Assembly: GCA_035691305.1 (NCBI GenBank)
Contig: DASSJF010000033.1
Location: forward strand, 1 to 64,000
Direction: 5' to 3'
DNA from: a bacterium
Lineage (GTDB): Bacteria; Sysuimicrobiota; Sysuimicrobiia; Sysuimicrobiales; Segetimicrobiaceae
DNA: 64,000 nucleotides
The notes under the pieces are model-generated. The model was not told the origin of the DNA, searched no databases, and saw nothing but the letters and a program-made list of their open reading frames with translations. Positions within the stretch are counted from its first letter, which is position 1; each line of letters starts with the position of its first letter. This document shows positions 11,715-46,414 of the stretch, piece by piece. The translations under genes and the position numbers were made by a program.

Positions 11715-12707
11715 GTGAAGCTTGGATTGAGCCTGCCGAATCGCGGCGTGTTGTTCGGAGCCATTTCCGTGGACGAGATCCTGCAGTTGAGCGAGATCGC
11801 GGACCGGAGTGAAGCGTTCGACTCCGTCTGGGTCGGCGACAGCTTGATTGCCAAACCCCGGCTCGAGGCGATCGCGACGCTCGCCGCGATCGCGGCGAGG
11901 ACGCGCCGCGTCCGCCTCGGGACGGCGTGCATGGCGAGCTTCGTCTATCGCAACCCGATCATTTTTGCGATTCAATGGGCGACGTTGGACGTGCTGAGCC
12001 GCGGCCGCGCGCTGCTCTGCGCGTGCATGGGCGCGAGCGGCGGCGAAGGCATGGGCGAGGCGCAGAACGAGGTGCAGGTCCTCGGCTTTCGCCCCAAGGA
12101 GCGCGTGAGCCGTTTCGAAGAAGGCATCGAAGTCGTGCGCCGCCTTCTCAACGAGGCGCCGGTTACGCACGAGGGCGCCCACTACCGGTTCGACAGCCTC
12201 ACCCTCGAGCCGCGCCCGATCCAGCGGCCGCTGCCGGTCTGGGTCGCGAACGAGCCGAACCTCGACAAGCCCGACCTGGCCGACCGGCAGTGCCGGCGGG
12301 TCGCGGCGTTCGCCGACGGGTGGATGACGGACGGCGGGCCGACGCCGGCGGTCTTCGCGGCGCGGTGGCGGCTGCTCTCGCGGCACCTGCGGGAGGCCGG
12401 CAAGGATCCGGACACATTCCCCACGTCCTACCATATGATGATCAACATCAACGACGATCCTCGCCGCGCCTGGGACGACGGCGTCGGCTTCCTCACCAAG
12501 TACTACGGCCCGATGCGGGAGGACTTTCTCCGGATCTGGCTCGCGGCGGGGCCGGCCGAGGAGGTCGTCGCGCGAATCCAGGCGTACATCGACGCGGGGT
12601 GCCGGCTGCCGATTCTCCGCTTCGCGGCGTGGGACGCGCCGGCGCAGATCCGGCGGTTTCTGGACGGCGTCTACCCGCGGCTCAGGGCCGCGCACGCCGG
12701 GGCGTGA
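11715..12707 (+). CDS. LLM-class flavin-dependent oxidoreductase (paralogue)
   Basis: A 330-residue luciferase-like protein. It begins VKLGLSLPNRGVLFGAIS and carries SVWVGDSLIAKPRLEAIATL and TACMASFVYRNPIIFAIQWA, matching the minus-strand neighbour at 10620-11597 almost position by position in the first 100 residues. The start is GTG at 11715 with GGGAGGT 6 nt upstream. It overlaps the convergent molybdenum hydroxylase gene by 26 nt. Such pairs often act on different but related substrates. The cofactor (FMN or F420) cannot be read from sequence alone. Confidence 0.88.
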   Translation: MKLGLSLPNRGVLFGAISVDEILQLSEIADRSEAFDSVWVGDSLIAKPRLEAIATLAAIAARTRRVRLGTACMASFVYRNPIIFAIQWATLDVLSRGRALLCACMGASGGEGMGEAQNEVQVLGFRPKERVSRFEEGIEVVRRLLNEAPVTHEGAHYRFDSLTLEPRPIQRPLPVWVANEPNLDKPDLADRQCRRVAAFADGWMTDGGPTPAVFAARWRLLSRHLREAGKDPDTFPTSYHMMININDDPRRAWDDGVGFLTKYYGPMREDFLRIWLAAGPAEEVVARIQAYIDAGCRLPILRFAAWDAPAQIRRFLDGVYPRLRAAHAGA

Positions 12708-15015
12708 CGCGAGACGCGGCGACGAGCCGCAGGATCACCGCGGGCGTGATCGGCACGGCGTCGATCGCGACGTCGAAGGGCCGGAGCGCGTCTTCGACGG
12801 CGCCGGCGAGTACCGCGTACGCCGGGATCGTTCCGCCTTCACCGGCGCCGCGGGCCCCGAGCGGATTGAGCGCGCTCGGGGTCTCGAGATGGTCAATCTC
12901 GATCGAGGGCGCGCCGGAGGCTCGCGGGAGAGCGTAGTCCGCGAGCGAGCCGGTGAGCGGCTGGCCCGCGTCGTCGTAGCGCAGCGCCTCGCGGAGCGCG
13001 CCGCCGATGCCCTGCACGGTGCCGCCCGCGATCTGCCCCTCCACGGCCGCCGGCTGCAGCACGCGGCCGCAGTCGTGCGCGACCAGATAGCGGAGAATGC
13101 GCACCTCGCCGGTCTCGGGATCGACGGTGACGATCGCGGCGTGGACGCCGCTCGCGTACGTCGCGCCTCCGGGCGCGAAATGCGCGCCGGCCTCGAGTCC
13201 CGGGCCGTCGGGGACGAGCAGGGGCCTGCGCCCGGATGCGCTGGCGCGGGCCAGTTCGTCCAGGCCGATGCCGCGCTCCGGCGCGCCGGCCACGAACGCG
13301 CGCCCGCCGGCCAGCCGGATGTCCGCGGCCCTCGCTTCGAGCACGCGGGCGGCCGCCTGCGCCGTCCGCTCTTTGACTCGCCTCGCCGCTTCCGCGACGG
13401 CGGACCCGGCGACGACCGCGGCCCGGCTGCCCCACGTGCCGACTCCGTACGGAATCGCCGCCGTGTCCCCGAGCCGCACGCGGATTCGCCCGGCCGGCAC
13501 GCCGAGCTCCGCCGCGCAGATCCCGGCGAGCAGCGTCTCGAGTCCTTGTCCCTGCGAGCAGATGCCCGAGGCGACGGTGATGCCGCCGGCGCCGTCGATC
13601 CGCACGAGCGCCGTCTCGAACGTGCCTGCGCCGGTGGACTCCATGTAGCACGCGATCCCGGCGCCGAGGTACCGACCGGCCGCGCGCTCCGCCGCCTGCC
13701 TCCGCCGGAAGGCGGGTAGATCCAGGCGTTCGAGGATCCGGTCGAGGCACGGCGCGCAGCTCCCCGCGTCGTACACCACGTCCGCGCCGCCCAGCGCGAC
13801 GCCGGTCCGGTACGGAAACTCGTCCGGCCGCAGCAGGTTGCGGCGACGCAGCTCCGACGGTTCGAGACCGACCGCGCGGGCCCCGCGGTCCAGGGCGCGT
13901 TCGAGCGCGAACACGGCTTCGGGCTGTCCCGCGCCCCGGTACGGGATCGCCGGCGGCTTGTTCGTGAACACCGACGTCGCGTGCAGATCCAGCGCCGGAA
14001 TGCGGTAGGGACCGGCGAGGCTCGCCAGCGTGACGAGCGGCAGGCGCAGACCGTACGGGGTGTAGGCGCCGTTGTCGTGCAGCACGCGGTCCCGCAAACC
14101 GAGAATGGTGCCGTCCGCGGCGAGCGCGAGCGCGATCCGGTGCCGTTGTCCGCGGCTGTGCCCGCTCAGCATCAGGTGCTCGCGGCGGGATTCGTTCCAC
14201 CGGATCGGCCGGCCGGTGCTCAACGCCAGCCGGGCGCACAAGACCTCCTCCGGCGCGAGACACAGCTTGCTGCCGAAGGCGCCGCCGACGTCCGGCGCCA
14301 CCACGCGGATGGACGCCTCGGGGCGATCCAGCGCGAGCGCCAGGCCCAGGCGGATGACGTGGGGCACCTGCGTCGAGGTCCACACGGTCAGCAGTTCGTC
14401 CGCGGGATCGTACCGCGCGACGACGCCGCGCGGCTCGATCGGCTGCGCCGAGCTGCGCGGCATCTCGACGTCGAGTTCGACCGTCACGGCCGCCGCCGCA
14501 AACGCGTCGTCCGGCGCGCCGACGGTCGTACGCCACGTTCCGACGACGCCGTCCGGGCAGCGGTCGTGCAGCGGCGCCGCGCCGCCTTCGGCGACCCGCC
14601 TCGGATCCGCGGCGACCGGGAGCGGATCGTAGTCGACGTCCACGGCGGCCGCCGCGTCCGCGGCCGCGTATGGCGTCTCGGCGAGGACCGCGGCGACGGC
14701 CTCGCCGGCGTAGCGGACGCGATCGGGCGCAAGCGGGGACTGGGCCGCGGGACAGCGGGGCGCCGGCGATGTCACCATCGGCATCAACGGACGATTCGCC
14801 GCGCCGAGGTCGCGGGCGGCCAACACGGCGACCACATCGGGGAGCGCCGCCGCACGATCCCGGTGGACGGCAACGACGCGGGCGTGTGCGTGCGGGCTGC
14901 GGACAAGCGCGAGATGCAGCATTCCCGGAAGCCGGATGTCGGCAACGTACCGGCCGCGACCGCGGAGAAACCGGAGATCCTCGAGACGGCCGGTGGCCGG
15001 GATGTGTTCGCTCAT
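12682..15015 (-). CDS. Xanthine dehydrogenase/CO dehydrogenase-family molybdopterin-binding subunit
   Basis: A 777-residue large subunit of the xanthine-oxidase family of molybdenum hydroxylases. The N-terminal domain starts RFLRGRGRYVADIRLPGMLH. The Mo-cofactor segments follow: PDVGGAFGSKLCLAPEE (about residue 250), IPYRGAGQPEAVFALERALD (about 340), GICSQGQGLETLLAG (about 455) and, near the end, GARGAGEGGTIPAYAVLAGA, which carries the catalytic glutamate. The loop is YRGAGQ, not the AYRCSF of true CO dehydrogenase, so it is probably an aldehyde or N-heterocycle hydroxylase. The Fe-S and FAD subunit genes are not next to it. The ATG at 15015 matches the family N-terminus; the frame beyond is spurious. 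Confidence 0.9.
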   Translation of the reverse strand: MSEHIPATGRLEDLRFLRGRGRYVADIRLPGMLHLALVRSPHAHARVVAVHRDRAAALPDVVAVLAARDLGAANRPLMPMVTSPAPRCPAAQSPLAPDRVRYAGEAVAAVLAETPYAAADAAAAVDVDYDPLPVAADPRRVAEGGAAPLHDRCPDGVVGTWRTTVGAPDDAFAAAAVTVELDVEMPRSSAQPIEPRGVVARYDPADELLTVWTSTQVPHVIRLGLALALDRPEASIRVVAPDVGGAFGSKLCLAPEEVLCARLALSTGRPIRWNESRREHLMLSGHSRGQRHRIALALAADGTILGLRDRVLHDNGAYTPYGLRLPLVTLASLAGPYRIPALDLHATSVFTNKPPAIPYRGAGQPEAVFALERALDRGARAVGLEPSELRRRNLLRPDEFPYRTGVALGGADVVYDAGSCAPCLDRILERLDLPAFRRRQAAERAAGRYLGAGIACYMESTGAGTFETALVRIDGAGGITVASGICSQGQGLETLLAGICAAELGVPAGRIRVRLGDTAAIPYGVGTWGSRAAVVAGSAVAEAARRVKERTAQAAARVLEARAADIRLAGGRAFVAGAPERGIGLDELARASASGRRPLLVPDGPGLEAGAHFAPGGATYASGVHAAIVTVDPETGEVRILRYLVAHDCGRVLQPAAVEGQIAGGTVQGIGGALREALRYDDAGQPLTGSLADYALPRASGAPSIEIDHLETPSALNPLGARGAGEGGTIPAYAVLAGAVEDALRPFDVAIDAVPITPAVILRLVAASRVTPRRARP

Positions 15016-15107
15016 CGAGTGCGCCCGCGGTTCATTCGACCAGGCAGAGACCCGTCCTCCGCCACGGGGGAGGGCGGCCGCGCCGGCCTGTGGAAGTGTC
15101 GCCGGCG

Positions 15108-17063
15108 ATGCCGCCGCAGTTTCCACTGCTTTTCTCACCGCTCCGCATTGGCTCGGCCGAAGTCAAGAACCGGATCGTCAGCACGTCGCACGACGCCTCC
15201 TTCGGCTCGGGCGGCTATCCCACGGATCGCTACGTTCGCTACCACGTGGAAAAGGCGAAGGGCGGCGCCGGCCTCGTGCAGGCGTTCGGCACGACGAGCG
15301 TGCACCCGAGTTCGCCCGGCGGGCCCGGCAACGTGCAGATCTTCGACGATTCGATCGTGCCGTATTTTTCGCACATGGCCGCGGAGATCCACCGCTGGGG
15401 CGCGCTTGTCACCTGCCAGCTGGTGCACCGCGGGCGCCGGATGAGCGTGCTGGCCTCGCGGCGGGCGGCGGTGGCGCCCTCCGAGACGCCCAACGAACGG
15501 ACGTGGGAGGTGCCGCACGCGCTCTCGGTCGCGGAGATCCGCGAGCTCGTCGACGCGTATGCCGCGGCCGCGGTCCGGACGCGGGACGGCGGCTTCGACG
15601 GGGTGGAACTGGCGTTCTTCGGCGATATGCTGCCGGACGAGTTTCTGTCGCCGGCGGTCAACCGGCGGACCGACCGGTACGGCGGCTCGCTCGAGAACCG
15701 CGCGCGGCTCGCGCGCGAGATTGTCTCGGCGGTGCGCGAGGCGGTCGGCCGGGACTTCCTTGTCGGCGCGCGCGTGAGCGCCGAGGACTTCGTCGACGGT
15801 GAGCTCGGCCGCGAGGAGCGGCTCGCGGTCGCGCGGATGCTGGACGGGCTCGGCGCGCTGGACTTCTTCTCCGTCACGGCCGGCACGACCAAAGGGATGC
15901 GAGGCCGGCCGCGGCACGTGCCGTCGTCGTACTTCCCGCACGGAGCGTACCTCGATCTTGTCGCGCCGTACAAGCAGGCGGTGCGGGTGCCGGTGATCTA
16001 CGCGGGCCGGGTGGTCCATCCGGCGGAGGCGGAAGACGCGCTCCGCCGCGGCCTCGCGGACCTCGTCGGGATGACCCGCGCGATCATCGCCGATCCCGAG
16101 ATGCCGCGGAAGGCGCAGGACGGCCGCGTGGCGGATATCCGGCTCTGCGTCGGCGCGAACGAGGGCTGTATCGGGCGCCTCTACATGGGCCTGCCGATCG
16201 AGTGCGTGCAGAACCCGGTGATCGGCCGTGAGGCGGAACTTGCGGAGATCCGGCCGGCGGCGCGTCGCCGTCGCGTCGTCGTCGCGGGCGGAGGCCCCGC
16301 CGGGCTGGAAGCGGCGAGGGTCGCGGCGCTGCGGGGGCACGACGTCGTCCTCCTCGAGCGCGACGCGGAGCTCGGCGGACAGGTGCGGGCGGCCTCGCGC
16401 GCCCCGGGACGGGGAGAGTTCGCGGGCATCGCGGCGTGGCTCGCCCGTCAGGTGCGGCAGGCGGGCGTCGACGTGCGGCTTCGCACGGCGGCGACGCCGG
16501 AACTGGTTCGCTCGCTGGCCCCGGATGCGGTCATCGTCGCCACGGGCTCCCGGCCGCGCCTGGCGCCGCTGGAAGCGGGCGGCGGCACGGCCGTCGTGAG
16601 CGCCGAGGATGTCCTGCTCGAGCGGGTCACGCTCAGCGGGCGGGTGGTTGTCGTCGCCGACGATCCACACATGGCGGGACCGACCACGGCGGATTTTCTG
16701 GCCGGCCGCGGCTGCGCCGTCGAGGTGGTCACGCGGCACTTCCTCGTGGGCGAAGGCGTCGACGACACGCAGAAGCCCGTGATCCTCGAGCGGTTGCTGC
16801 GGGGCGGCGTAACGCTCACGCCGCTGACGGAGGCCCGCGCCGTGACGTCCGGCGGCCTGGACGTCCGGCACGTGCTCACCGGCGAGACGCGCCGGCTGCC
16901 GGCCGACGCGGTCGTGGTGGCAAACGGCGGCTGCGCCGACGATGTCCTCTACCATGCGCTGGACGGCTGGCCGGGCGAGCGGCTGCTGATCGGCGATGCG
17001 TTCGCGCCGCGGCGCGTGCACGACGCGCTGCTCGAGGCCACCCGCGCGGCGAGGGCTCTGTGA
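15108..17063 (+). CDS. NADH:flavin oxidoreductase, 2,4-dienoyl-CoA reductase/TMADH-like
   Basis: A 651-residue two-part flavoenzyme. Residues 1-360 form an Old-Yellow-Enzyme TIM barrel (FSPLRIGSAEVKNRIV, DEFLSPAVNRRTDRYGGSLE, VIYAGRVVHPAEAEDAL, LVGMTRAIIADPEMPRK). Residues 385-651 form an NAD(P)/FAD disulfide-reductase-like module starting RRVVVAGGGPAGLEAARVAA. Between them lies the 4Fe-4S loop, which reads CVGANEGC then CVQNP further on: the second of the four usual cysteines is alanine. It may reduce enoates or dienoyl-CoA, or oxidise an amine. The ATG was chosen where the barrel begins. Its stop overlaps the M24 gene start (GTGA). Confidence 0.9.
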   Translation: MPPQFPLLFSPLRIGSAEVKNRIVSTSHDASFGSGGYPTDRYVRYHVEKAKGGAGLVQAFGTTSVHPSSPGGPGNVQIFDDSIVPYFSHMAAEIHRWGALVTCQLVHRGRRMSVLASRRAAVAPSETPNERTWEVPHALSVAEIRELVDAYAAAAVRTRDGGFDGVELAFFGDMLPDEFLSPAVNRRTDRYGGSLENRARLAREIVSAVREAVGRDFLVGARVSAEDFVDGELGREERLAVARMLDGLGALDFFSVTAGTTKGMRGRPRHVPSSYFPHGAYLDLVAPYKQAVRVPVIYAGRVVHPAEAEDALRRGLADLVGMTRAIIADPEMPRKAQDGRVADIRLCVGANEGCIGRLYMGLPIECVQNPVIGREAELAEIRPAARRRRVVVAGGGPAGLEAARVAALRGHDVVLLERDAELGGQVRAASRAPGRGEFAGIAAWLARQVRQAGVDVRLRTAATPELVRSLAPDAVIVATGSRPRLAPLEAGGGTAVVSAEDVLLERVTLSGRVVVVADDPHMAGPTTADFLAGRGCAVEVVTRHFLVGEGVDDTQKPVILERLLRGGVTLTPLTEARAVTSGGLDVRHVLTGETRRLPADAVVVANGGCADDVLYHALDGWPGERLLIGDAFAPRRVHDALLEATRAARAL

Positions 17064-18187
17064 CGGACGCGGCGCGCGAAGACGCGCCGGTTGCGGAGAT
17101 CGCGGCCCGTCGCGACGCGCTGACGGGCCGGCTGGCCGCGGACGAAGCCGTCCTGGTCTACGGGTTGAGCGGCCACGCGGCCGATCTGCTCTATGTGAGC
17201 GGGTACGCTCCGGTCTTCGGCGCGGCGTATCTGTTGCTACTGCCGTCCGGACCGAGGGCGCGGCTGTGGGTGCCGTTCAACTGGGACGTTGCTCGGGCCC
17301 GGCGTGCGGCGCGCGGTGTGGACGTTCCCGCGGCGGACGGGACCGGCGCGGAGGTTTGCCGCGCCGTAGCCGCAGCCGGGGTCCGGCGTCTTCACGCCGG
17401 CCCCGCGGAGACGCTGCCCGTGGCGTTCACCGAGGCGCAGCGTGCGGCGGCCCCCGGGATCGAGATACGCCCGCTCGCGCCCGGGATCGACGTGCTCCGG
17501 CGGCGCAAGAGTGCCGCGGAAATCGCGCTGCTGCGCGAGGCGTGCCGCATCACGGACGCCGGGTTTACCGCGATCGCGGCCGGGCCCGCGGCGGGGCGGC
17601 GCGAGATCGATCTCGCCGCGGAGGCGGAGTTTGCGATGCGCACCGCCGGGGCGGAGGCCTTCGGCTGGCCCGCGGTCGTCGTCTCGGGACCCAACGGCGG
17701 CATCCCCGTAGCGTTCACCGGCACGCGCGCGCTCGAGCGCGGCGACATCGTAACCGCGGATCTCGGCGTCGTCTACCGGGGATACCGGACCGACCTCACG
17801 CGGTCGTTCGTGGTGGGACCGCCCAGCCAGGCACAGCAGCGGTTGTACGACCTGCTGCGCCGTGCGTTCGCGGCCGCGGTCGCCGCGGCGCGGCCTGGGA
17901 TCCCGGTGCGGCGGCTGCACGAGGCGGTCGCCGGCGCGATCGCGGGCGCGGGCTACGGCGGGGCGTTCGGCGTGCGCGCCGGCCACGGCATCGGCCTCGA
18001 AAGCTCGCAGGAATGGCCCGACGTCGAGACGGAAACGGGCGCGCTCGAGCCGGGCATGACCCTATGCCTCGAGCCGGGCGTGTACTTCGGGGAACGGGGC
18101 GGCATGCGCGTCGAGGAAGAGATACTCATCACCGAAACCGGTTGCGAGCCGTTGTCAGGTGAGCCGCCCGCGCTGCGGGCGATCTGA
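17060..18187 (+). CDS. M24 family metallopeptidase, Xaa-Pro dipeptidase-like
   Basis: A 375-residue pita-bread-fold protein with an N-terminal creatinase-type domain and a C-terminal M24 domain. All five metal ligands can be seen: Asp in TADLGVV, Asp in YRTDLTRSFVVG, His in AGHGIGLE, Glu in LEPGVYFGERGG and Glu in MRVEEEILIT. It should therefore be an active proline-specific dipeptidase or aminopeptidase in the cytoplasm. The GTG start overlaps the flavoenzyme stop by 4 nt. A transporter binding-protein gene follows 162 nt later, so it may serve the imported peptide. Confidence 0.92.
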   Translation: MTDAAREDAPVAEIAARRDALTGRLAADEAVLVYGLSGHAADLLYVSGYAPVFGAAYLLLLPSGPRARLWVPFNWDVARARRAARGVDVPAADGTGAEVCRAVAAAGVRRLHAGPAETLPVAFTEAQRAAAPGIEIRPLAPGIDVLRRRKSAAEIALLREACRITDAGFTAIAAGPAAGRREIDLAAEAEFAMRTAGAEAFGWPAVVVSGPNGGIPVAFTGTRALERGDIVTADLGVVYRGYRTDLTRSFVVGPPSQAQQRLYDLLRRAFAAAVAAARPGIPVRRLHEAVAGAIAGAGYGGAFGVRAGHGIGLESSQEWPDVETETGALEPGMTLCLEPGVYFGERGGMRVEEEILITETGCEPLSGEPPALRAI

Positions 18188-18349
18188 CGCGTGTCGAGGC
18201 TCGGTAGATTCCCATAACGCGAATCGTCGCGAGCTGTGATGGACCGCAGGACTCACTCCGAGTACCACGAACGTGTAGCGAGTTTACACGGTGACGCGGC
18301 AATGAACTTCGCGGCACCGGCTGATTTCCAATGTTGGGGGGGACGGGTG

Positions 18350-19936
18350 ATGGCCAGGCGGTTGAGTGCGGCGTGGATCGTTCTGCTCCTTGCAGGCGGC
18401 GTGATGACCATGGGACTGGGCGACAGGGCGGGGGCGGCCTCGGCGTCCGACACGCTGGTTATCGCGAAGGACATCTCGGATATCCACACGCCCGATCCGA
18501 ACAAGAGCTACGATATCAGCGGCGTGTTTATGCAGTTTCCGATCTACAGCCGGCTGGTCAAGCAGGAAGCGCCGGATCTCGGCAAGATCCAGCCGGACCT
18601 CGCCGCCTCGTGGACTTTCAACCCCAACGCGACAGTTATGACGTTTAAGCTGCGCGACGCTAAGTTCGGTGACGGCGCGCCCGTCACGGCCGAGGACGTG
18701 CGGTTCTCGCTGCTGCGGGCCAAGAACCTGAAGGGCTACGGCTCGTTCCTGGCCGATCCATTGAAGAGCGTGGACGTCGTCGATCCCAAGACGGTCCGGA
18801 TCACTCTGACCGACCCGAACGCCGCGTTTCTCGCGACGCTGACGGCGGGCGTGTTCTCGATCGTCGAAGCGAAGGTCGTGCGCGCGGCCGGCGGCGTCGA
18901 GACGCCCGGGGCGGACAAGCTCGACAAGGCCGAGCAGATTTTCTTCAAGGAATCCGCCGGCACGGGTCCGTTCAAGCTGGTCTCGTACACGCGGGAGTCG
19001 CAGATCGTCATGGCCCGGAACGACAACTACTACGGGCCGGCGCCATTTTTCCGGACCGTTATCATCAAGCACGTGAAGGAGCCGGCGACCCAATCGTTCA
19101 TGGTGCAGCGGGGCGACGCCGACATCGCGCTGGACCTGAGCATCAACCAGATCAACGCGATCCGCGGGAAGCCGGGATTGCAGTTCTTCCAGGACCCCTC
19201 GGCGTGGACGACATATCTCGGCATGAAGACGGCGGTCAAGCCGTGGGACAACCCGAAGGTCCGCGAGGCCGTGAAGTACGCGATCGACTACGACGGGCTG
19301 ATCAACGGGGTACTCCACGGGACGGCGCGGCAGCTCGGCAGCATCATGATGCCCGGGTTGCTGGGGTTTCCTGAATCGCTCAACAAGCAGCTGCTGTACA
19401 AGCAGGACCTGAACAAGGCGCGGGCGCTGCTGAAAGAGGCCGGGATCGGCACCGTCCACGTAGACTTTGTTTGGGGCCTCGGATTTGCGTACGGCACGGC
19501 GACCGCCGATCAGATTGCGCAGAAGCTGCGCGCGGATCTGCAGCGAGTCGGCATCATCCTAGACCCGAAGCCCGTGCAGGCCGGGATTCTCCTTACCACA
19601 GCGAGGACGGGCAAGCCCGCCACCATCCTGAACACGTGGTACCCGGACTACTTCGATCCGGACAACTTCACCTATTTCGCAAGCGGCTTCGTCGCGAAGC
19701 GGTTCAACTGGGTCGACGCGCAGGGGAAAAAGGACGGCGAAGAGGCCGCGGCGACGAGCGACGTGGCGAAGCGCGAGAGCCTCTACGAAGACTACAACAA
19801 GCGGATCGCGGCCCCCGGCTCACCGTACGCCTTTCTTGTCCAGCCGTACTCCGTTGTGCCGGCCCGCGCAGACCTGACCGGCTACCACTTCCACCCGTTT
19901 TTCTTCCTGCAGCTCGACACGCTGCGGCGCAAGTAA
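18350..19936 (+). CDS. ABC transporter substrate-binding protein, family 5 (Dpp/Opp type)
   Basis: A 528-residue extracytoplasmic solute-binding protein of the peptide/opine/nickel family. Residues 1-30 form a Sec signal peptide (ARRLSAAWIVLLLAGGV, cleavage probably after AGA) without a lipobox cysteine. The family signatures are LAASWTFNPNATVMTFKLRD, FGDGAPVTAEDVRFSLLRA and KVREAVKYAIDYDGLINGVL. ATG 18350 is preceded by a G-rich Shine-Dalgarno; the longer frame from 18236 would bury the signal peptide. The permease genes lie 3.7 kb downstream, after three enzyme genes. A strong hairpin follows the stop. The ligand is unknown. Confidence 0.92.
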   Translation: MARRLSAAWIVLLLAGGVMTMGLGDRAGAASASDTLVIAKDISDIHTPDPNKSYDISGVFMQFPIYSRLVKQEAPDLGKIQPDLAASWTFNPNATVMTFKLRDAKFGDGAPVTAEDVRFSLLRAKNLKGYGSFLADPLKSVDVVDPKTVRITLTDPNAAFLATLTAGVFSIVEAKVVRAAGGVETPGADKLDKAEQIFFKESAGTGPFKLVSYTRESQIVMARNDNYYGPAPFFRTVIIKHVKEPATQSFMVQRGDADIALDLSINQINAIRGKPGLQFFQDPSAWTTYLGMKTAVKPWDNPKVREAVKYAIDYDGLINGVLHGTARQLGSIMMPGLLGFPESLNKQLLYKQDLNKARALLKEAGIGTVHVDFVWGLGFAYGTATADQIAQKLRADLQRVGIILDPKPVQAGILLTTARTGKPATILNTWYPDYFDPDNFTYFASGFVAKRFNWVDAQGKKDGEEAAATSDVAKRESLYEDYNKRIAAPGSPYAFLVQPYSVVPARADLTGYHFHPFFFLQLDTLRRK

Positions 19937-19965
19937 CCGCGGCGCCGATCGTCGAGTAATCGCGG

Positions 19966-19992
19966 CCCGAGGCGCTCGCCGAGCGCCTCGGG
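19966..19992 (+). terminator. Perfect 12-bp hairpin after a binding-protein gene
   Basis: CCCGAGGCGCTC pairs with GAGCGCCTCGGG around a 3-nt loop, 29 nt after the binding-protein stop. The downstream tract ATCCGTCTTTCC is only mildly T-rich. It could be a partial terminator or a 3' mRNA stabiliser that raises the binding protein over the downstream enzymes and permeases. Confidence 0.6.
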
Positions 19993-20049
19993 ATCCGTCT
20001 TTCCACCGGCCGGGTTTTCGCGGTGCGGCGATTTCCGCGGAGGCAGACG

Positions 20050-21390
20050 ATGACCCAGAGCGTGGCGATCGTGGGCGCTACGATCGTGACGATGAACGAC
20101 GCGCGTGATGTGGTGGCCGACGGCACGGTGGTTATCGAGCGCGGCAGATTCGCCTCCGTGACGGCCGGGACGCGCGATCCCGGCGCGGATCGGCTCATCC
20201 GCGGCGACGGCTGCGTGCTGATGCCGGGTCTGATCAACTGTCACGTGCACACCCGGCCGGGGCGAGCGCTTGGAGATGGTCTGTCGCTCTTCGACTGGCA
20301 CGCGCTGTACCCGGACGGCCTCTGCCGCGGCATGACGGAGGCCGATTCGCGAACCGGCGGCCTGCTGGCGTTCGCGGAGTCCCTCAAACGGGGCACGACG
20401 ACGGTTATGGACATGACCTGCAAGCCGGCGGGCGCCTTTGCGGCTGCCGAGGAGATCGGGATCCGGGCCAGGATCGCGCCGCTGGCGGCGGACGCGCAGT
20501 TCGCTGGAAACGGCGCCTGCGACGTCTACGCCGATTTCGTTGAGTCGATCACGAATCTGCCTCGGCCCGCGGACGCACGCGTGCAGTACTGGCTCGGCTT
20601 CGACGCCATCAACGGCGTGACCGAGGCGACGCTTCGACGGATGAGCCAGGACGCTCAGCGCCTGCATACCGGCATCCACGGTCACATGTCGGAATCGCGT
20701 GATGACGCGGGCTGGCCCGATCGGGAGCGCGGCGAGCCGGCCGCGATCTACCTGCGGCGAACGGGCGTGCTCGGCCCGCGGACGGTCCTGGCGCACTGCA
20801 ACTGGCTGACAGCGGACGAGATCGAGGCGTTGGCCGAGACCGGGACGAGCGTCGCCCACAACCCGACCAGCAACATGAAACTGGGGACCGGCGTGGCGCC
20901 GGTCCCGGAGCTGCGGGCCCGCGGCGTCAACGTAGGTCTCGGAACCGACGGCATGCTGTCGAATTTTCATCTCGACATGTTCGAGGCGATGCGCGGCGCC
21001 TGCATGCTGCAGCGCATCCACAGGCTCGACGCGCACGCGCTGATGAGTTGGGATGTGCTGGAGATGGCCACACGCGGTGGCGCCCGCGCGATCGGCGAGG
21101 CGCCAGATCTCGGCGCGATCGAGGCCGGCAAGCGGGCGGACGCTGTCCTGCTCGACCTCGGCGGCGCGCATCTGCGTCCCCTGATCCGCGGCCGCCATGA
21201 CAATTTCGCGGCCCTCCTGACGTGGTGCGCGCACGGCTCGGACGTGCGGACGGTGCTCGTGGACGGTGTGGTGGTGGTGGAAGACCGGCGGCTGTGTCTC
21301 GCCGACGAGGCCGCCATCGTCCGCGACGCGCAGCGCGTGGCCGAGCGGCTCGTGGCGGCCCTGCCCGCGACAGGAACGTCCCCGGCGTAG
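20050..21390 (+). CDS. Amidohydrolase / cytosine-deaminase-like metal-dependent hydrolase
   Basis: A 446-residue TRZ/ATZ-type amidohydrolase. The metal-site residues are seen in order: INCHVHTRPG (HxH, about residue 68), IHGHMSESRDD (about 216), AHCNWLTADEIEAL (about 250), VAHNPTSNMKLGTG (about 272) and VGLGTDGMLSNFHLD (metal aspartate, about 300). Such enzymes deaminate or hydrolyse C-N bonds in purines, pyrimidines, triazines and related rings. ATG 20050 has GCGGAGGCAG just upstream and is preferred to the earlier start at 20023. It sits between the binding protein and the cyclodeaminase-family gene, suggesting that it acts on the imported compound. Confidence 0.9.
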   Translation: MTQSVAIVGATIVTMNDARDVVADGTVVIERGRFASVTAGTRDPGADRLIRGDGCVLMPGLINCHVHTRPGRALGDGLSLFDWHALYPDGLCRGMTEADSRTGGLLAFAESLKRGTTTVMDMTCKPAGAFAAAEEIGIRARIAPLAADAQFAGNGACDVYADFVESITNLPRPADARVQYWLGFDAINGVTEATLRRMSQDAQRLHTGIHGHMSESRDDAGWPDRERGEPAAIYLRRTGVLGPRTVLAHCNWLTADEIEALAETGTSVAHNPTSNMKLGTGVAPVPELRARGVNVGLGTDGMLSNFHLDMFEAMRGACMLQRIHRLDAHALMSWDVLEMATRGGARAIGEAPDLGAIEAGKRADAVLLDLGGAHLRPLIRGRHDNFAALLTWCAHGSDVRTVLVDGVVVVEDRRLCLADEAAIVRDAQRVAERLVAALPATGTSPA

Positions 21391-21417
21391 TGTGAAGGCT
21401 GTGCGGAGGGTCACGGC

Positions 21418-22401
21418 ATGACGCTCAGGGTACTGTCGGAGGCGGACATTTTGCGGTGCTGGTCGATGCGCGACGCGATCGACTGGCAGCGCGACGCGTT
21501 TCGCCTGTACTCAGGGGGACTCGTCGAGCGGGGGCTGCATCGTTGGATCTACACCGACGCGCCCCACGGTGTGATCGGTTTTCTGCCCGGCGTCATCAAA
21601 GACGGCGGCGGGTTCGGCATCAAGATGCTCTCCGCATTTACCGATGAGGTCACCACGCGATACGTGACCCGGGGACTCGTGCTGGTGGCCGACGGGCGAA
21701 CCGGTGAACCGCGGGCGCTGCTTGAAGGCGGAGCCGTGACCGACCTGCGGACGGGCGCCGCGACCGGCCTCGCGATCGACCTCCTGGCGAAGCGGAGCGC
21801 CCGGGTGGGCGCGATGTTCGGCGCCGGCCACGTCGCCCTAAATCAGATCGAGGCGATGTGCGAGATCCGCGACATCGAGACGGTATGGCTGTTCAGCCGG
21901 ACGCGGTCGAAGGCGCTGCAGTTCATCGAGACGATGCGCGCGAAGGGCGGCCGGATTCCCCGAGACTGGCACCTGGCGTCGAGTCCTCGCGAGGCCGTCG
22001 CGGATGCCGATATCGTGATCACGGCCACCACGACATCGACCCCGTTGTTCGACGGCCGCGACCTGCGTCAGGGCGCCTGCGTGATCGCCGCGGGCGGTTG
22101 CGTGCCGGAGAGCGGCGAGGTGGACGTCGAGACGATCCGACGCTGCGCGAAAGTCGTCGTCGACATGAAGGAGACCTGCGCGTGCGGCGAACTCGCCGTC
22201 CCGCTCGCGCAGGGGGTGATCGGCGCCGCCGACGTGGCGGAGCTCGGCGAGCTCGTGCTCAGCTCCCGTCCTGGACGGGAGCGCGACGACGAGATCACGT
22301 TCTGCAAGACGATCGGCGTGCCCGTTCAGGACCTGGTGACCGGACAGCGGCTGCTCGCGCGCGCCGAAGCCCTCGGTTTGGGACGCGTCGTAGAATTGTA
22401 A
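21418..22401 (+). CDS. Ornithine cyclodeaminase / mu-crystallin family protein
   Basis: A 327-residue NAD(P)-dependent protein. The N-terminal domain carries GFGIKMLSAFTDE (substrate-binding lysine near residue 65). The Rossmann domain starts VGAMFGAGHVALNQIEAM (about 129), slightly off the usual GxGxQ. The segment CGELAVPLAQG lies near the end. The catalytic aspartate is in SGEVDVETI. The family includes ornithine cyclodeaminase, ketimine reductases, alanine dehydrogenases and EutC of ectoine degradation; sequence alone does not decide. A Shine-Dalgarno CGGAGGG precedes the ATG. The M24-like gene follows after 22 nt, the same pairing as eutC-eutD. Confidence 0.9.
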   Translation: MTLRVLSEADILRCWSMRDAIDWQRDAFRLYSGGLVERGLHRWIYTDAPHGVIGFLPGVIKDGGGFGIKMLSAFTDEVTTRYVTRGLVLVADGRTGEPRALLEGGAVTDLRTGAATGLAIDLLAKRSARVGAMFGAGHVALNQIEAMCEIRDIETVWLFSRTRSKALQFIETMRAKGGRIPRDWHLASSPREAVADADIVITATTTSTPLFDGRDLRQGACVIAAGGCVPESGEVDVETIRRCAKVVVDMKETCACGELAVPLAQGVIGAADVAELGELVLSSRPGRERDDEITFCKTIGVPVQDLVTGQRLLARAEALGLGRVVEL

Positions 22402-22423
22402 CGGCATCGCCGGGAGGTCACGC

Positions 22424-23590
22424 ATGAGCGCGGTATCGCCGGTCGACAGACCGTTCACCACCGAGGAATACCGGGCCAGGGTGGCCCGCGTGCAGGCCGC
22501 GGCTCGGCGGCGCGGGATCGATGCCATGTTCGTGTCGATTCCAGAGAACAACTACTGGCTGACCGGGTTCCGCACGCTGGGCTACTTCTACTACATGGTC
22601 CTGCTCGTGCCGGTGGAAGGCGATCCGATCCACCTGGCGCGGTATGTCGAGAAGAATGTGATCGACGGAACCTCCTGGACCGGGCGCGCCGAATACTGGG
22701 ACGATTCGGAGGACTATCTCGACGCGACGGCGCGTATCTTCGGCAAGTACCGGCTCGATCGTGCCACCGTCTCCTTCGACAAAGGGGCGTGGTATTTCAC
22801 GTTCACCGAATTCGAAGGCCTGCAGCGACGGCTCCCGCACACCAACTGGGTCGACGGGACCGGGATCATTGAGCGCCTCCGGCTCATCAAGTCTCCCGCG
22901 GAGCAGGCCTATACTCGGCAGGCGGCCAAGATCCTGTCGGGTGGGATGCAGGCCGCGATTCGCTCGATCCGCCCCGGGCTCACCGAGAACGATGTGATGG
23001 CCACCGCGTACGATTACCTGTTGCGGCATGGCAGCGAGGTGGTCGCGGAGCCGCCGATGATCCTCACCGGCGTCCACGGGTCCATGGCGCACGCGGCGCC
23101 GGAGGGCGTCACGATCAGGACCGGGGACGTCGTCTACCATGAGATCGGCGCGTCGGTGAAGCGGTACCACGCGGCAATGATGCGCACCGCCTTCGTCGGC
23201 GACCCGCCCAAGGAGGTCATCGACCGCGTCGACTTGTGCCGGCGGGCCATCGAGGCCGGTCTCGAGCACATGCAGCCCGGCAATCCCGCGCAGGAGGTGG
23301 ACCGCGCCGTTCGCAAGGTCATGGTTGACGGAGGGTGCGGTGACCTGTTCCGCCACAAGGCCGGCTACTCTCTCGGCGCCGCGTTCCCTCCGGACTGGAG
23401 CGAGGCGCAGACATTCCAGCTGCGAGAGGGCGAGGTGGAGCCGCTGCAGCCGGGCATGATCTTCCACATCCTCCCGACCGTCTTCGACTATCCGAAGCAC
23501 GGCCTGGGCGTCAGCGACACCGTCCTCATTACCGAACACGGCCACGAGGTCCTGACCGAGGGAGATAACCACCTGTACGTTATCCGATGA
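22424..23590 (+). CDS. Creatinase-like M24 protein with the metal site lost
   Basis: A 388-residue pita-bread-fold hydrolase with an N-terminal creatinase domain (NNYWLTGFRTLGYFYYM). The catalytic domain lacks most metal ligands of M24 peptidases: the two aspartates are Glu and Ala (VVYHEIGASVKRYHAAMMRT), the two glutamates are Leu and Ser (FHILPTVF, GLGVSDTVLIT), and only the histidine of FRHKAGYSLG remains. That pattern fits metal-independent creatinase and ectoine hydrolase (EutD/DoeA) rather than a dipeptidase. A Shine-Dalgarno GGGAGGT lies upstream. It is placed between the cyclodeaminase-family gene and the permease pair. Likely role: amidine or cyclic amide hydrolysis. Confidence 0.88.
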   Translation: MSAVSPVDRPFTTEEYRARVARVQAAARRRGIDAMFVSIPENNYWLTGFRTLGYFYYMVLLVPVEGDPIHLARYVEKNVIDGTSWTGRAEYWDDSEDYLDATARIFGKYRLDRATVSFDKGAWYFTFTEFEGLQRRLPHTNWVDGTGIIERLRLIKSPAEQAYTRQAAKILSGGMQAAIRSIRPGLTENDVMATAYDYLLRHGSEVVAEPPMILTGVHGSMAHAAPEGVTIRTGDVVYHEIGASVKRYHAAMMRTAFVGDPPKEVIDRVDLCRRAIEAGLEHMQPGNPAQEVDRAVRKVMVDGGCGDLFRHKAGYSLGAAFPPDWSEAQTFQLREGEVEPLQPGMIFHILPTVFDYPKHGLGVSDTVLITEHGHEVLTEGDNHLYVIR

Positions 23591-23640
23591 AGTCGCCGGC
23601 CAGGGCTCCGGCCGTCGACGGCTGATCGGCGGATCGCTCC

Positions 23641-24654
23641 ATGGCTCGGTACATCATCCGGCGGCTCGGTCTCAGTTTGCCGACCCTGATCGGCATCACC
23701 CTGCTCACGTTCCTGATCTCGCACGCGCTGCCCGCGGATCTTGTGCTGACGAGTCTCGGCGACCATGCCGCGCAGGATCCGCAGCTCGTGGCGGCGTTCC
23801 GGCACAAGTGGGGCCTCGACCGGCCTGCGCCCGTGCAGTACGCAGTCTACCTCGGCCGTCTCGCTCGCGGTGATCTCGGCACCTCGATCGCGACCGGACA
23901 GCCGGTCAGGACGGAGCTGACCCTGTCGTTGCCGGCAACGGTCGAACTCGCAACGGCCGGCATGCTGGGCGCGATCGTCATCGGCGGCCTCCTCGGCGTC
24001 ACCGCGGCGGTCCGCAGCGATACGCCGGTCGACCTGGTCGTGCGCTCGGTCATGGCCGTTGGGGTCGCGCTGCCGATCTTCTGGTATGCGATCCTGCTGC
24101 TTTTTGTCTTCTACTTCGTGCTCGGGTGGGCGCCGCCGCCTGGCCAGCTCGACCCTGGGTTGGATCCGGGCCCGCCGATCACGGGCATGTACGTGATCGA
24201 CAGCCTGGTGCGGGGCAATTGGCTGGTGTTCCGGAACGCGCTCGCCCATCTCGTGTTGCCGGCCGTGGTGCTCGCGACGGCCGGCATGGGGTTTATTGCG
24301 CGCATCACCCGCGCCACGGTCGTCGACGTGCTGGCCCGGGACTTCGTGCGCACCGCCCGCGCGAAGGGACTCGCCGACGCGCGCGTGGTGTGGCGGCACG
24401 CCGTGCGCAACGCCCTGATTCCGATCATCACCGTGATGGGGCTCTTGTACGCGCAGCTGATGTCGGGCACCGTTCTAACCGAAGCGATCTTCTCGTGGCC
24501 GGGCCTCGGCCGCTATGCGTTCATGTCCGCGAGCAACCTCGACTTTCCCGCCGTGATGGGCATCGCGCTTGTGATCGGCGTGTTCTACGTACTTCTCAAC
24601 CTCCTCGTCGACGTGCTCTACGCCTACCTCAACCCGAGGATCCGCTACGAGTAG
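23641..24654 (+). CDS. ABC transporter permease, DppB/OppB type
   Basis: A 337-residue inner-membrane permease. It begins ARYIIRRLGLSLPTLIGIT, the usual first membrane helix. A periplasmic segment with FRHKWGLDRPAPVQYAVYL follows, then five more helices. The EAA loop that docks onto the ATPase is near residue 235 (DFVRTARAKGLADARVVWRH). The end VLYAYLNPRIRYE is typical of DppB. The DppC gene starts 14 nt later. No ATPase gene is found here or anywhere in the window. It probably works with the binding protein at 18350. Confidence 0.93.
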   Translation: MARYIIRRLGLSLPTLIGITLLTFLISHALPADLVLTSLGDHAAQDPQLVAAFRHKWGLDRPAPVQYAVYLGRLARGDLGTSIATGQPVRTELTLSLPATVELATAGMLGAIVIGGLLGVTAAVRSDTPVDLVVRSVMAVGVALPIFWYAILLLFVFYFVLGWAPPPGQLDPGLDPGPPITGMYVIDSLVRGNWLVFRNALAHLVLPAVVLATAGMGFIARITRATVVDVLARDFVRTARAKGLADARVVWRHAVRNALIPIITVMGLLYAQLMSGTVLTEAIFSWPGLGRYAFMSASNLDFPAVMGIALVIGVFYVLLNLLVDVLYAYLNPRIRYE

Positions 24655-24667
24655 CCTCGACGCTGCG

Positions 24668-25534
24668 GTGCGTGCCGCCGAGCCCGCGGCGGTTGTGGAG
24701 ATGGTGCGTGCTGTCCGATCGCGGCGCGCCTGGCGGAGGACCGGGGTTATCGTGGGGTTGATCGTGCTGGCGGCGTGGGCGGCGGTCGCGGCCGCGGCGC
24801 CGCTCCTGTCCCCTTACGGCTACGACGAGCAGCGCGTGGACGAGACCCTGCAGCCGCCGAGCGCGCGGCATCTCTTCGGCACAGACGACCTCGGTCGCGA
24901 CATCTACACCCGCGTGTTGTACGGCGGTCGAGTGACGCTGCTGATCGGCGTCGGCGTAGTCTCGGTGGCCGCCGTCGCGGGCATGGCGATCGGCACCGTC
25001 GCCGGCTATGCCGGCGGGGGCGCCGACGAACTGATCATGCGCGCGACCGAGGTCATCATGGCGTTTCCGTCGATCATTCTCGCGATGGCGATCGCGGTCG
25101 CCCTGGGGCCGGGCGTGCTTCACGCCGGGCTTGCGATGGTGCTGGTGTGGTGGCCGACGTACGCGCGGCTCGCCCGCGGCGAGGTGTTGAACATCCGCCG
25201 AATGGAATATGTGGATGCCGCGGTGGCGATCGGGCAGCGGCCGTTGCGGATCTTGTTGCGCGCGATAGTGCCCAACATCCGCGCAAGCATCATCGTGTTG
25301 GCGACGGTGGACCTGGGGGCGGCCATCATCACGGCGGCGGGCCTGAGCTTCCTCGGGCTCGGCGCGGTGCCGCCGACACCGGAGTGGGGGGCGATGGTGA
25401 GCACCGGGCGCGAACTACCCCAGGCGTGGTGGATCGCCGGTTTTCCCGGCGTGGCAATTTTCACAACAGTGCTGGCGTTCAATTTCCTCGGAGACGCGGT
25501 CCGGGACTACCTGGATCCGCGGCACCGGCTCTAG
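24668..25534 (+). CDS. ABC transporter permease, DppC/OppC type
   Basis: A 288-residue inner-membrane permease, partner of the preceding DppB-type gene. The N-terminal helix GVIVGLIVLAAWAAVAAAAP is followed by the family segment HLFGTDDLGRDIYTRVLYGG. The EAA loop is near residue 181 (YVDAAVAIGQRPLRILLRA). The C-terminus FLGDAVRDYLDPRHRL is complete. The start is GTG. The next gene, an alcohol dehydrogenase, begins 11 nt later with a strong Shine-Dalgarno, so the transcript probably continues. Confidence 0.92.
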   Translation: MRAAEPAAVVEMVRAVRSRRAWRRTGVIVGLIVLAAWAAVAAAAPLLSPYGYDEQRVDETLQPPSARHLFGTDDLGRDIYTRVLYGGRVTLLIGVGVVSVAAVAGMAIGTVAGYAGGGADELIMRATEVIMAFPSIILAMAIAVALGPGVLHAGLAMVLVWWPTYARLARGEVLNIRRMEYVDAAVAIGQRPLRILLRAIVPNIRASIIVLATVDLGAAIITAAGLSFLGLGAVPPTPEWGAMVSTGRELPQAWWIAGFPGVAIFTTVLAFNFLGDAVRDYLDPRHRL

Positions 25535-25544
25535 GGAGGTACGG

Positions 25545-26555
25545 ATGCGCGCGATCGTGATCCGTGAGCACGGCGGACGCGATAGGCTTCAGCTCGAGCA
25601 GGCTGCGCCGGCGCCCGGCGCCGGGGTGGGCCAGGCGATCGTGCGCGTCCACGCCTGCGGACTCAACCATCTCGATATCTTCGTCCGGCGGGGCATGCCG
25701 GGCAAGCACACGCCGCTGCCGTTCACCTCCGGCGGCGACATCGCCGGCGTGGTGGAAGCGCTGGGCCCGGCGGCACCGGTCGAGTCTGCGGGCGCGGCGC
25801 CGGGCATCGTCGTCGGGCAGCGCGTCCTGGTCGATCCGGCGGTCCCGGGGGGCGCGATCGGTGAAGACGTCCCCGGCGGGCTCGCGGAGTACGCCCTCGT
25901 GCCCGCGGCGAACCTGATCCCGCTGCCCGACGGCCTTTCCTTCGACGAGGCGGCGGCGCTGCCGATCGCCTACGGCACCGCCTGGCGGATGATGCTCACA
26001 CGCGGCGCCGTGCGCGCCGGCGAGCGGATCCTGATCCTCGGCGCCGCGGGCGGCGTCGGCACGGCGTGCGTGCAGATCGCGAAGATGGCGGGCTGTACCG
26101 TGTACGCCGCGGCCTCCCGTGAAGACAAGCTGGGCACACTGCGCGATCTCGGCGCCGACCACCTGATCAACTACCGCGACGTGGAGTTCGACCGCGAGGT
26201 CTGGCGGCTCACGGAGAAGCGTGGCGTCGACGTCGTCGTCGACTACACCGGCCGGGAGACCTGGTCGAGGAGCCTGCGCGCGCTCCGCAAGGGCGGCCGG
26301 CTCCTCACCTGCGGCGCGACCACCGGTTTCGAGGCGGTCACCGACCTGCGCTACGTGTGGGTGAGAGAGCTCACGATTCTCGGCTCCGACGGCTGGACGC
26401 GCGAGGACCTTCTCGCGCTGCTCGCGGCGGTTCAGGCCGGGCGGATCCGGCCGGTGATCGGCCGCGTGCTGCCGCTCGCGCAGACCGCGGAAGGCGAGCG
26501 GCTGCTCGAAGACCGCGAGGTGATCGGGAAGGTGATCATCCATCCGCTCGAATAG
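25545..26555 (+). CDS. Zinc-type alcohol dehydrogenase / quinone oxidoreductase family
   Basis: A 336-residue MDR-superfamily oxidoreductase. It has the GroES-like N-terminal domain (VRVHACGLNHLDIFVRRGMP, PFTSGGDIAGVVEALG) and a Rossmann domain with ILGAAGGVGTACVQIAK (about residue 163). The structural-zinc cysteine cluster is absent and the catalytic zinc ligands are not clear, so it is closer to quinone oxidoreductase and crotonyl-CoA reductase relatives than to classical zinc ADH. A Shine-Dalgarno GGGAGGT lies 5 nt before the ATG. An acyl-CoA ligase gene follows, so its substrate may be an enoyl or carbonyl intermediate. Confidence 0.88.
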   Translation: MRAIVIREHGGRDRLQLEQAAPAPGAGVGQAIVRVHACGLNHLDIFVRRGMPGKHTPLPFTSGGDIAGVVEALGPAAPVESAGAAPGIVVGQRVLVDPAVPGGAIGEDVPGGLAEYALVPAANLIPLPDGLSFDEAAALPIAYGTAWRMMLTRGAVRAGERILILGAAGGVGTACVQIAKMAGCTVYAAASREDKLGTLRDLGADHLINYRDVEFDREVWRLTEKRGVDVVVDYTGRETWSRSLRALRKGGRLLTCGATTGFEAVTDLRYVWVRELTILGSDGWTREDLLALLAAVQAGRIRPVIGRVLPLAQTAEGERLLEDREVIGKVIIHPLE

Positions 26556-26613
26556 CGGCGCGGCGTCCCCGGCCGGCGCCGGAGGCCCCGGGACGGCCTC
26601 TCGTGGGCCCAAG

Positions 26614-28176
26614 ATGAATACGGCCTACCGGGGCAACTTTGGCGATCTGGCGCGCGTGCCGGTGCGGGTGTTCCCCGACCGCCCGGCCGTCATCCAGGGC
26701 GACGTCACGCTGACCTACCGGCAACTGGACACCCGCATGAACCGTGTCGCGGGAATGCTGCGCGGCCTCGACGTGCGGCCCGGGGCGCGCGTGGCGCTCC
26801 TGTTTCCGAACGAGTGGCCGTTTGTGGAAGCGATCTTCGGCGGCATGCGCGCCGGCGCGGTGCCCGTGCCGCTCAACATCCGGGCCGGCTATGACACGCT
26901 GCGGTACTGCGTCGAGCACTGCGACGCGGAAGTGCTCGTCGCGTCGGGGACGCTGCGAGATGTCGCGGCGCGCCTGCGCGCCGACGTGCCGCGCCTCCGT
27001 GCGCTCGTGTCGACCGGCGATCTGCCGGCGGGCGCGCTGTCGTACGACCGCCTGCTCGGGGACGCCCCGGAGACGGTCGAGAGCGCCGCGGCCGCGCCCG
27101 GCGACGTCTGCATGCAGCCGTACACCTCGGGCTCCACCGGCCGCCCGAAGGGCGTCTTGCTGACCCATGCCGGCCAGTTTTGGAACGGCGACATGGTGCG
27201 GCGCGTGATGATGCTCGACGAGAGCGACCGCGCGCTCGTGGCCGTGCCGCTCTACCACAAGAACGCGATGGCCGCGGCGGTGAAGCCGATCCTGATGGCG
27301 GGCGGGGCGCTCGTGATTCTCCCGGGCTTCGACCCGGCCGAGGTGATCAAGGCCATCGCGCGGTACCGGTGCACCTACATCACCGGCACCCCGGCGATGT
27401 TCCGGCTCGTTCTCAACCAGAAACGCCTGCTCGCGGAGTACGACGTGACGTCGCTGCGCTGGGCCGCGTGCGGCTCGGCGATGGTGCCGCCCGACCTGCT
27501 GCGGGAGTTCGAGGACACGTTCGGCGCGAGCATCAGCGAAGGCTACGGCCTCACCGAGGGCGGCCCCGTCGTCTTCGAAAGCCCGCGGTTCGGTCCGCGG
27601 AAGGTCGGCAGCTGCGGACTGCCGTTGCCCGGCTGCGAGGTCCGGGTCGTCGGCCGGGACGGGCGCGACGCGGGGGCGGGGCAGTCCGGTGAGCTCTGGG
27701 TCCGGAATCCCGGCCTCGCCCGCGGGTACTACAAGGCGCCGGATCTGACCTCGGCCAAATTCGATCCCGCGGGGTGGCTGCACACCGGCGACCTCGTCCG
27801 GTCCGACGAGCAGGGCTACTACTATATCCTCGGCCGCGTCGACGACATGATCAACGTCGGCGGCGAGAACGTCTATCCGAAGGAAGTCGAGGACCTGCTG
27901 CTGCTGCACCCGGCCGTCCGCGAGGCGTTCGTGGTGCCGGTGCCGCACGCCGTCAAGGGCGAAGCGCCCGTGGCGTTTGTGGTGCTGCACGAGGGGCGGT
28001 CCGCGACCGCGGGCGAGCTGAAGCAGTTCTTCCTGTCGCGGGGTCCGGCGTACGCGCATCCGCGTGAGGTGTTCTTCGTGCAGCAGGCGCCGCTCGGCAG
28101 CACCGGCAAAGTCGACCGGCTGGCGCTGCGGGCGCGCGCGGTCGAGGCGGTCGGGACGCTCAAGGGAGGGGTGTAG
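26614..28176 (+). CDS. AMP-forming acyl-CoA ligase
   Basis: A 520-residue ANL-superfamily enzyme that activates a carboxylic acid with ATP and CoA. The motifs are complete: P-loop-like YTSGSTGRPKGVLLTH (about residue 170), GYGLTEGGPVVFE (about 310), LHTGDLVRSDEQGYYYILGR (about 390), DMINVGGENVYPKEVEDLL and, near the C-terminus, the catalytic lysine of PLGSTGKVDRLAL. The acid cannot be inferred; medium-chain or aromatic acids are likely. Its stop overlaps the thioesterase start by one base, so the pair is coupled. Confidence 0.92.
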   Translation: MNTAYRGNFGDLARVPVRVFPDRPAVIQGDVTLTYRQLDTRMNRVAGMLRGLDVRPGARVALLFPNEWPFVEAIFGGMRAGAVPVPLNIRAGYDTLRYCVEHCDAEVLVASGTLRDVAARLRADVPRLRALVSTGDLPAGALSYDRLLGDAPETVESAAAAPGDVCMQPYTSGSTGRPKGVLLTHAGQFWNGDMVRRVMMLDESDRALVAVPLYHKNAMAAAVKPILMAGGALVILPGFDPAEVIKAIARYRCTYITGTPAMFRLVLNQKRLLAEYDVTSLRWAACGSAMVPPDLLREFEDTFGASISEGYGLTEGGPVVFESPRFGPRKVGSCGLPLPGCEVRVVGRDGRDAGAGQSGELWVRNPGLARGYYKAPDLTSAKFDPAGWLHTGDLVRSDEQGYYYILGRVDDMINVGGENVYPKEVEDLLLLHPAVREAFVVPVPHAVKGEAPVAFVVLHEGRSATAGELKQFFLSRGPAYAHPREVFFVQQAPLGSTGKVDRLALRARAVEAVGTLKGGV

Positions 28177-29282: not shown

Positions 29283-29402
29283 GGCGACTCGCGTTCTCGC
29301 CGGGCGGACAGGAGTCCTCCGGCCCAAACTGAATCAGAGAGACGCCGCACATAGTTTGCAGATGCGGGCGGGTGCGCCCCGGCGGCGCAAAGGAGCGTGG
29401 GG

Positions 29403-31921: not shown

Positions 31922-31928
31922 GGGACCG

Positions 31929-33530: not shown

Positions 33531-33546
33531 GGGGCGCGTCCGCCCC
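33531..33546 (+). repeat. Short hairpin between binding-protein and permease genes
   Basis: GGGGCG pairs with CGCCCC around the loop CGTC, starting at the first base after the stop of the second binding-protein gene and ending 10 nt before the permease GTG. The stem is only 6 bp, so chance is possible in this GC-rich DNA. It may also hide the permease ribosome-binding region. Confidence 0.4.
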
Positions 33547-33556
33547 GCCGCGGTCC

Positions 33557-40987: not shown

Positions 40988-41175
40988 TCGGCGCCCGCGT
41001 ACGGAGGGGAGGCGAGCCGCGGGCGCTCCTCGACGATCAGCAGCTCGCGGAACCGCACTTCCCACTCCTCCAACGCCAGACCGGTATCGCGGCCACGTCC
41101 GTGTCTTACCCGGGCGAAGGGAGAAGGCGCCGCCGCGGTAAAGACGAGGGGACTCTTCGGCTGAGGAGGACGGCT

Positions 41176-42771: not shown

Positions 42772-42773
42772 AC

Positions 42774-42790
42774 CCGTCCGCGCAGGACGG
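42774..42790 (+). repeat. Short hairpin between binding-protein and permease genes
   Basis: CCGTCC pairs with GGACGG around the loop GCGCA, two bases after the binding-protein stop and 16 nt before the permease GTG. The stem is 6 bp. It matches the position of stronger hairpins at 19966 and 57817. Confidence 0.4.
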
Positions 42791-42806
42791 TCCGGCCGCG
42801 TAGCGC

Positions 42807-46409: not shown

Positions 46410-46414
46410 GTTCC

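Follow-up and report, generated by a model that had tools for sequence, protein, structure and literature searches.

A run of ten consecutive genes on the forward strand (positions 15108-28176) of the window, by which we mean the whole analyzed stretch of 64,000 nucleotides (nt) on contig 33 of a 3.58-Mb genome assembly with 87 contigs, is a real, conserved operon that is probably functional. With a probability of about one half, we read it as a catabolic operon that imports and degrades a cyclic amidine, imine or amide acid, along a route that would be DoeA-like but different. The genes follow each other in the order OYE (a flavin reductase), M24a, solute-binding protein, amidohydrolase, OCD (a protein of the OCD/mu-crystallin family), M24b (a metal-free M24 protein), the permeases DppB and DppC, dehydrogenase and acyl-CoA ligase. 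The intergenic gaps range from -4 to 162 nt, and the third-position GC is 0.85-0.93 in every gene. A promoter and terminator scan revealed no convincing terminator inside the array, with matches falling within genes. A first-pass annotation had described a smaller cluster of importer, amidohydrolase, cyclodeaminase-family and M24 genes, all of which are present where it placed them and belong to the families it named (Pfam). The array extends further in both directions, to OYE on the upstream side and to the dehydrogenase and acyl-CoA ligase on the downstream side, and a related genome keeps all three.

Relatives were compared in a set of 43 genomes of one order (seven families), including 12 genomes in the window's own family. 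Relatedness drops directly from the level of order to that of domain, which would fit the phylum Sysuimicrobiota (CSP1-3; PMC11604079) and perhaps its soil family Segetimicrobiaceae, and the window's genome looks like one assembled from a metagenome. A genome of another genus in this family (G005) contains all ten genes in identical order with 64-80% protein identity, in a copy that is split over two contigs with the break inside M24b. Between the window and G005, the ratio of nonsynonymous to synonymous substitution rates (dN/dS) is 0.08-0.24 for all ten genes, lowest for M24b (0.079) and OCD (0.086) and highest for M24a (0.24), although these values are rough since dS is close to saturation. 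All ten genes are under purifying selection, which is strongest on OCD and M24b. The array is beyond chance because of its third-position GC, the order kept across genera and the dN/dS values. Unconserved gene order in relatives had been considered as an argument against the cluster; the order is fully kept in one genome (G005) and partly in G002, which belongs to the same genus as the window.

G002 retains the binding protein, the amidohydrolase, both permeases, the dehydrogenase and the ligase at 82-90% identity. OCD and M24b are cleanly gone from this genome, the amidohydrolase stop codon overlapping the start of DppB as TGATG, and searches of the rest of G002 returned no ortholog of either gene at the limits applied. 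Of OYE and M24a, only a collinear scrap around their shared boundary, 42-56 bp long, is left. Because this scrap remains, both genes were lost in G002, rather than never gained. Because G005 has OCD and M24b, their absence from G002 is more simply read as a loss. Since the four genes are missing together, they behave as a dispensable branch on a six-gene core, a division that rests on one genome (G002). G001, which also belongs to the window's genus, has no orthologs of the amidohydrolase and the permeases.

The persistence of the core in G002 without the four genes would also be expected if two systems shared the locus, with the core serving one solute and an inserted set (OYE and M24a, OCD and M24b) serving another. 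We regard this as unlikely, since OCD and M24b lie between the amidohydrolase and the permease in both complete copies with a divergence like that of the core, and all four genes are missing together. In addition, the remnant in G002 indicates loss and not late gain, at least for OYE and M24a.

The single catabolic operon that we favor draws on the features of M24b and OCD, which are adjacent. M24b (22424-23590; Pfam Creatinase_N and Peptidase_M24) is a predicted metal-free creatinase/DoeA-like hydrolase. All five metal ligands are replaced (D,D,H,E,E in PepQ to E,A,Y,L,S), a loss as in DoeA, and the initial metal-free assignment of this protein was right. At the site where M24 hydrolases have a histidine ahead of the first ligand, M24b retains His223, which is nearly invariant across 24 aligned sequences; we take it to be the catalytic-type histidine of creatinase and DoeA. 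The closest solved protein, both by sequence and by predicted fold, is DoeA (6twk). The AlphaFold model of M24b (predicted local distance difference test score, pLDDT, 74.5) is usable for the fold, while the active-site loops have low confidence. M24b reaches 248 bits against the DoeA_2 profile (cut-off 575) and 202 bits against a second DoeA/EutD profile (cut-off 613), and a single clade of M24b with four DoeA proteins is rejected by the approximately unbiased (AU) test (p-AU 0.020 with 29 rows and 0.0002 with 31 rows). The identity is 80-87% to the G005 ortholog and 34-41% to the other nearest sequences. Outside the family, the closest M24b (41% identity, in G485) adjoins genes for hydantoinase A/B and MmgE/PrpD. 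M24b homologs often adjoin ring-opening C-N genes (imidazolonepropionase (hutI)-type, 5-oxoprolinase PxpABC, hydantoinase A/B, ATZ/TRZ, and ectoine eutABCDE), although this survey of neighbors was read by eye without statistics and provides a lead only.

The OCD protein (21418-22401; Pfam OCD_Mu_crystall) contains a Cys at the alignment column of Asp228 (Pseudomonas putida numbering), which is catalytic in ornithine cyclodeaminase (PMC3497308). EutC and AlaDH retain this Asp, whereas pyrroline-2-carboxylate reductase (6t3e), the nearest solved relative by sequence, is without it. The carboxylate-binding residues Lys69 and Arg111 (Lys69 and Arg112 in the cyclodeaminase) are kept and nearly invariant. 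Because Cys replaces the catalytic Asp, a ketimine-type reductase is likelier than a cyclodeaminase as judged from the alignment. In the tree, the protein falls on the side of the pyrroline-2-carboxylate and ketimine reductases and EutC on that of AlaDH, with a single clade rejected (p-AU 0.0002), and the EutC profile gives 139 bits (cut-off 472). A closer OCD group (40-45% identity) occurs in another phylum, with no M24b nearby in the loci examined. In G006, an OCD ortholog (53% identity; locus L089, 6040-9735) is preceded by a dihydropyrimidinase-like amidohydrolase and by an M20-like reading frame, again with M24b absent nearby in the locus examined. Here too, a member of this OCD group is paired with a ring hydrolase.

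The first two genes of the array overlap by 4 nt. The FadH/OYE-type flavin reductase (15108-17063; Pfam Oxidored_FMN and Pyr_redox_2) scores 582 bits against TIGR03997 (cut-off 793), and its nearest solved proteins are NCR, 2,4-dienoyl-CoA reductase and the histamine/trimethylamine dehydrogenases. M24a (17060-18187; Pfam) had been called an active M24 protein. Its five metal ligands (D,D,H,E,E) are indeed intact in the alignment, but the two His that are catalytic in Xaa-Pro peptidases are replaced by Val and Gln, identically in the G005 ortholog (64% identity). The corresponding residues His243 and His361 act in Escherichia coli aminopeptidase P (PMC5774706). M24a is probably not a canonical prolidase. 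DddP is a known case of an M24 scaffold with a different chemistry (PMC4108388).

These residues also bear on whether the locus is a peptide-scavenging operon, consisting of a Dpp importer and two M24 peptidases with the remaining genes being incidental. The binding protein, DppB and DppC do fall into families of dipeptide transporters, and the M24 family comprises peptidases. Nevertheless, such an operon is quite improbable given an M24b without a metal site and an M24a without the two His that act in aminopeptidase P (PMC5774706), and it would leave the conserved OCD, amidohydrolase and OYE unexplained.

The Dpp/Opp importer parts encoded in the array are the binding protein (SBP_bac_5; 18350-19936; Pfam E-value 1.4e-80) with a signal-peptide start at 18350, the DppB-type permease (23641-24654; Pfam) and the DppC-type permease (24668-25534; Pfam). 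The binding protein has HbpA and DppA as best matches in the PDB and shares 77% identity with G005 and 86% with G002, compared to 78 and 90% for DppB and 78 and 88% for DppC. No Dpp-type ATPase is present on the window's contig. Pairs of oligo_HPY ATPases were found on contigs 8, 35, 41, and 59 and a weak one on contig 69, amounting to about nine genes genome-wide, and this suggests that ATPases are shared among the Dpp-type importers. The window contains four such importers (18350-25534, 30320-34510, 41101-44656, and 44774-48263), none with a Dpp-type ATPase on the contig.

The amidohydrolase (20050-21390; Pfam Amidohydro_1) is of the ATZ/TRZ type, i.e., an aminohydrolase of N-heterocycles by family. 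Its metal and catalytic motifs (HxH, HxxE, H, D, corresponding to CHVHTR, HGHMSES, AHCNWL, and GTDG) are intact and comprise the zinc and Glu motifs of aminohydrolases. The best NCBIfam match is 5'-deoxyadenosine deaminase with 294 bits (cut-off 522), and the identity is 74% to G005 and 82% to G002. The AlphaFold model, built from two sequences (mean pLDDT 37.6), was not used for substrate inference. Downstream of the permeases, the array ends with a member of the zinc-type alcohol dehydrogenase/quinone oxidoreductase family (25545-26555; Pfam; PDB 2eih), kept in both G005 and G002, and an AMP-forming acyl-CoA ligase (26614-28176; Pfam) with 80% identity to G005 and 87% to G002.

The genome is rich in importers and amidohydrolases with many paralogs, the four Dpp-type importers in the window alone being an example, and the ten genes might accordingly be chance neighbors with no common pathway. 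The gene order kept across genera, the tight spacing and the strong constraint make this very unlikely.

For the reactions, their sequence and their unity in one pathway, we infer the following. The binding protein and DppB/DppC would import a small solute, powered by ATPases whose genes lie in other parts of the genome. The amidohydrolase would strip an amino group or open a C-N bond of a nitrogen ring, the OCD-family enzyme would use NAD(P)H to reduce a cyclic C=N (ketimine), and M24b would then act like DoeA and hydrolyze the cyclic amidine or amide so formed, with the kept histidine in place of a metal. The acyl-CoA ligase and the dehydrogenase would hand the acid to central metabolism. 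The six genes kept in G002 would form the core of this pathway, and OYE and M24a together with OCD and M24b would make up an optional branch, dispensable as one unit. By analogy, the OCD-M24b pair may work like EutC-EutD, i.e., a reductase followed by metal-free ring hydrolysis. More specifically, and only tentatively, we propose a ring-opening route in which a ketimine-type OCD reductase and a metal-free M24 protein, having arisen separately from EutC-EutD, would act one after the other on a cyclic amidine or amide other than ectoine, after the amidohydrolase and the flavin reductase have prepared the ring.

Several observations weigh against the proposed catabolic operon. The core genes persist in G002 without OCD and M24b, and the amidohydrolase therefore need not feed these two enzymes. 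The complete cluster is found in only two out of 12 family genomes. Several M24b homologs have no ring-hydrolase neighbors in the same hand-read, non-statistical survey. Finally, the genome contains many paralogs, with 18 M24 matches, which makes a family-level transfer of function weak.

The pathway may be an unrecorded one, as had been suggested at first, with a cyclic amidine, opine or modified amino acid as candidate substrates. In a scan of genome contigs, the G005 copy and distant M24 proteins were the sole matches, none of the plasmid loci examined (a few records being unannotated) combines the amidohydrolase, OCD and M24b, and literature searches for this gene combination found nothing. 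Catabolic operons without an assigned function are common in soil bacteria. If the proposed pathway is true, a reductase with a metal-free M24 protein would represent a reusable ring-opening module that is not peculiar to ectoine use, and many DoeA-like proteins that databases label as Xaa-Pro peptidases would act as C-N hydrolases on small cyclic compounds. The sister genomes that carry or lack the branch form a natural comparison, readily available in the search for the substrate.

A divergent cluster for the utilization of the salt protectant ectoine or of 5-hydroxyectoine, in which the OCD protein served as EutC and M24b as EutD, would agree with DoeA as best match of M24b in sequence and fold, with the reductase adjoining the M24 gene as in eutC-doeA, and with reports of some Gram-positive ectoine clusters without eutE (PMC13188858), but is highly improbable given the scores far under the EutC/EutD cut-offs, the rejected clades for both proteins, the Asp kept in EutC and not in the OCD protein, an SBP_bac_5 importer instead of an Ehu or Ueh type, and genome-wide profile searches in which neither the EutE/DoeB deacetylase (best 112 bits, cut-off 403) nor EutB (best 269 bits, cut-off 413) passes its threshold. 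Membership in the eut/doe system was rejected on these grounds. The first-pass annotation had considered eutA, eutB and eutE to be missing, which holds genome-wide for eutB and eutE under curated cut-offs; EutA is not present in the array, where it was checked locally with no genome-wide search made. Its likening of the OCD-M24 pair to EutC-EutD is not supported as a kinship past the superfamily level, which both trees with reference sequences reject, and the trees weigh against an eutCD origin. Its broader view of an importer and catabolic enzymes in a kept order, distinct from the ectoine pathway and with a DoeA-type metal-free M24 gene adjoining an OCD-family gene, stands.

Outside the array, the divergent upstream neighbor is a gene for the large subunit of a molybdenum hydroxylase of the CODH/XDH family (12682-15138, minus strand; Pfam, with NCBIfam scores below the cut-offs). 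It has a nucleotide match in G005 and G002 with its position kept, and its membership in the system is uncertain. Downstream, G005 contains an extra M24 gene between the ligase and HIBADH (locus L045, 5581-6762), where the window has a VOC-like open reading frame on the minus strand (28608-29327). A creatininase-family gene (48295-49152) adjoins one of the other importers and is nearest to mycofactocin MftE, below the MftE cut-off.

Compared to known systems, the array shares with eutABCDE/doeAB of Halomonas elongata, Sinorhizobium, and Ruegeria an importer and an OCD-family reductase directly preceding a metal-free DoeA-type M24 protein. It differs by having no EutE, EutB or EhuB-type parts, by the additional amidohydrolase, OYE and acyl-CoA ligase, and by its Dpp-type importer. 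Creatinase is likewise a metal-free protein with the pita-bread fold, but M24b shows only 16-18% identity to it in fold alignments and is much closer to DoeA. The OCD protein and pyrroline-2-carboxylate reductase 6t3e both miss the cyclodeaminase Asp, although their relation is distant. The window's amidohydrolase shares its family and catalytic motifs with the ATZ/TRZ amidohydrolases (MTA/SAH and 5'-deoxyadenosine deaminase, atrazine chlorohydrolase), while falling under the curated cut-off of each family listed.

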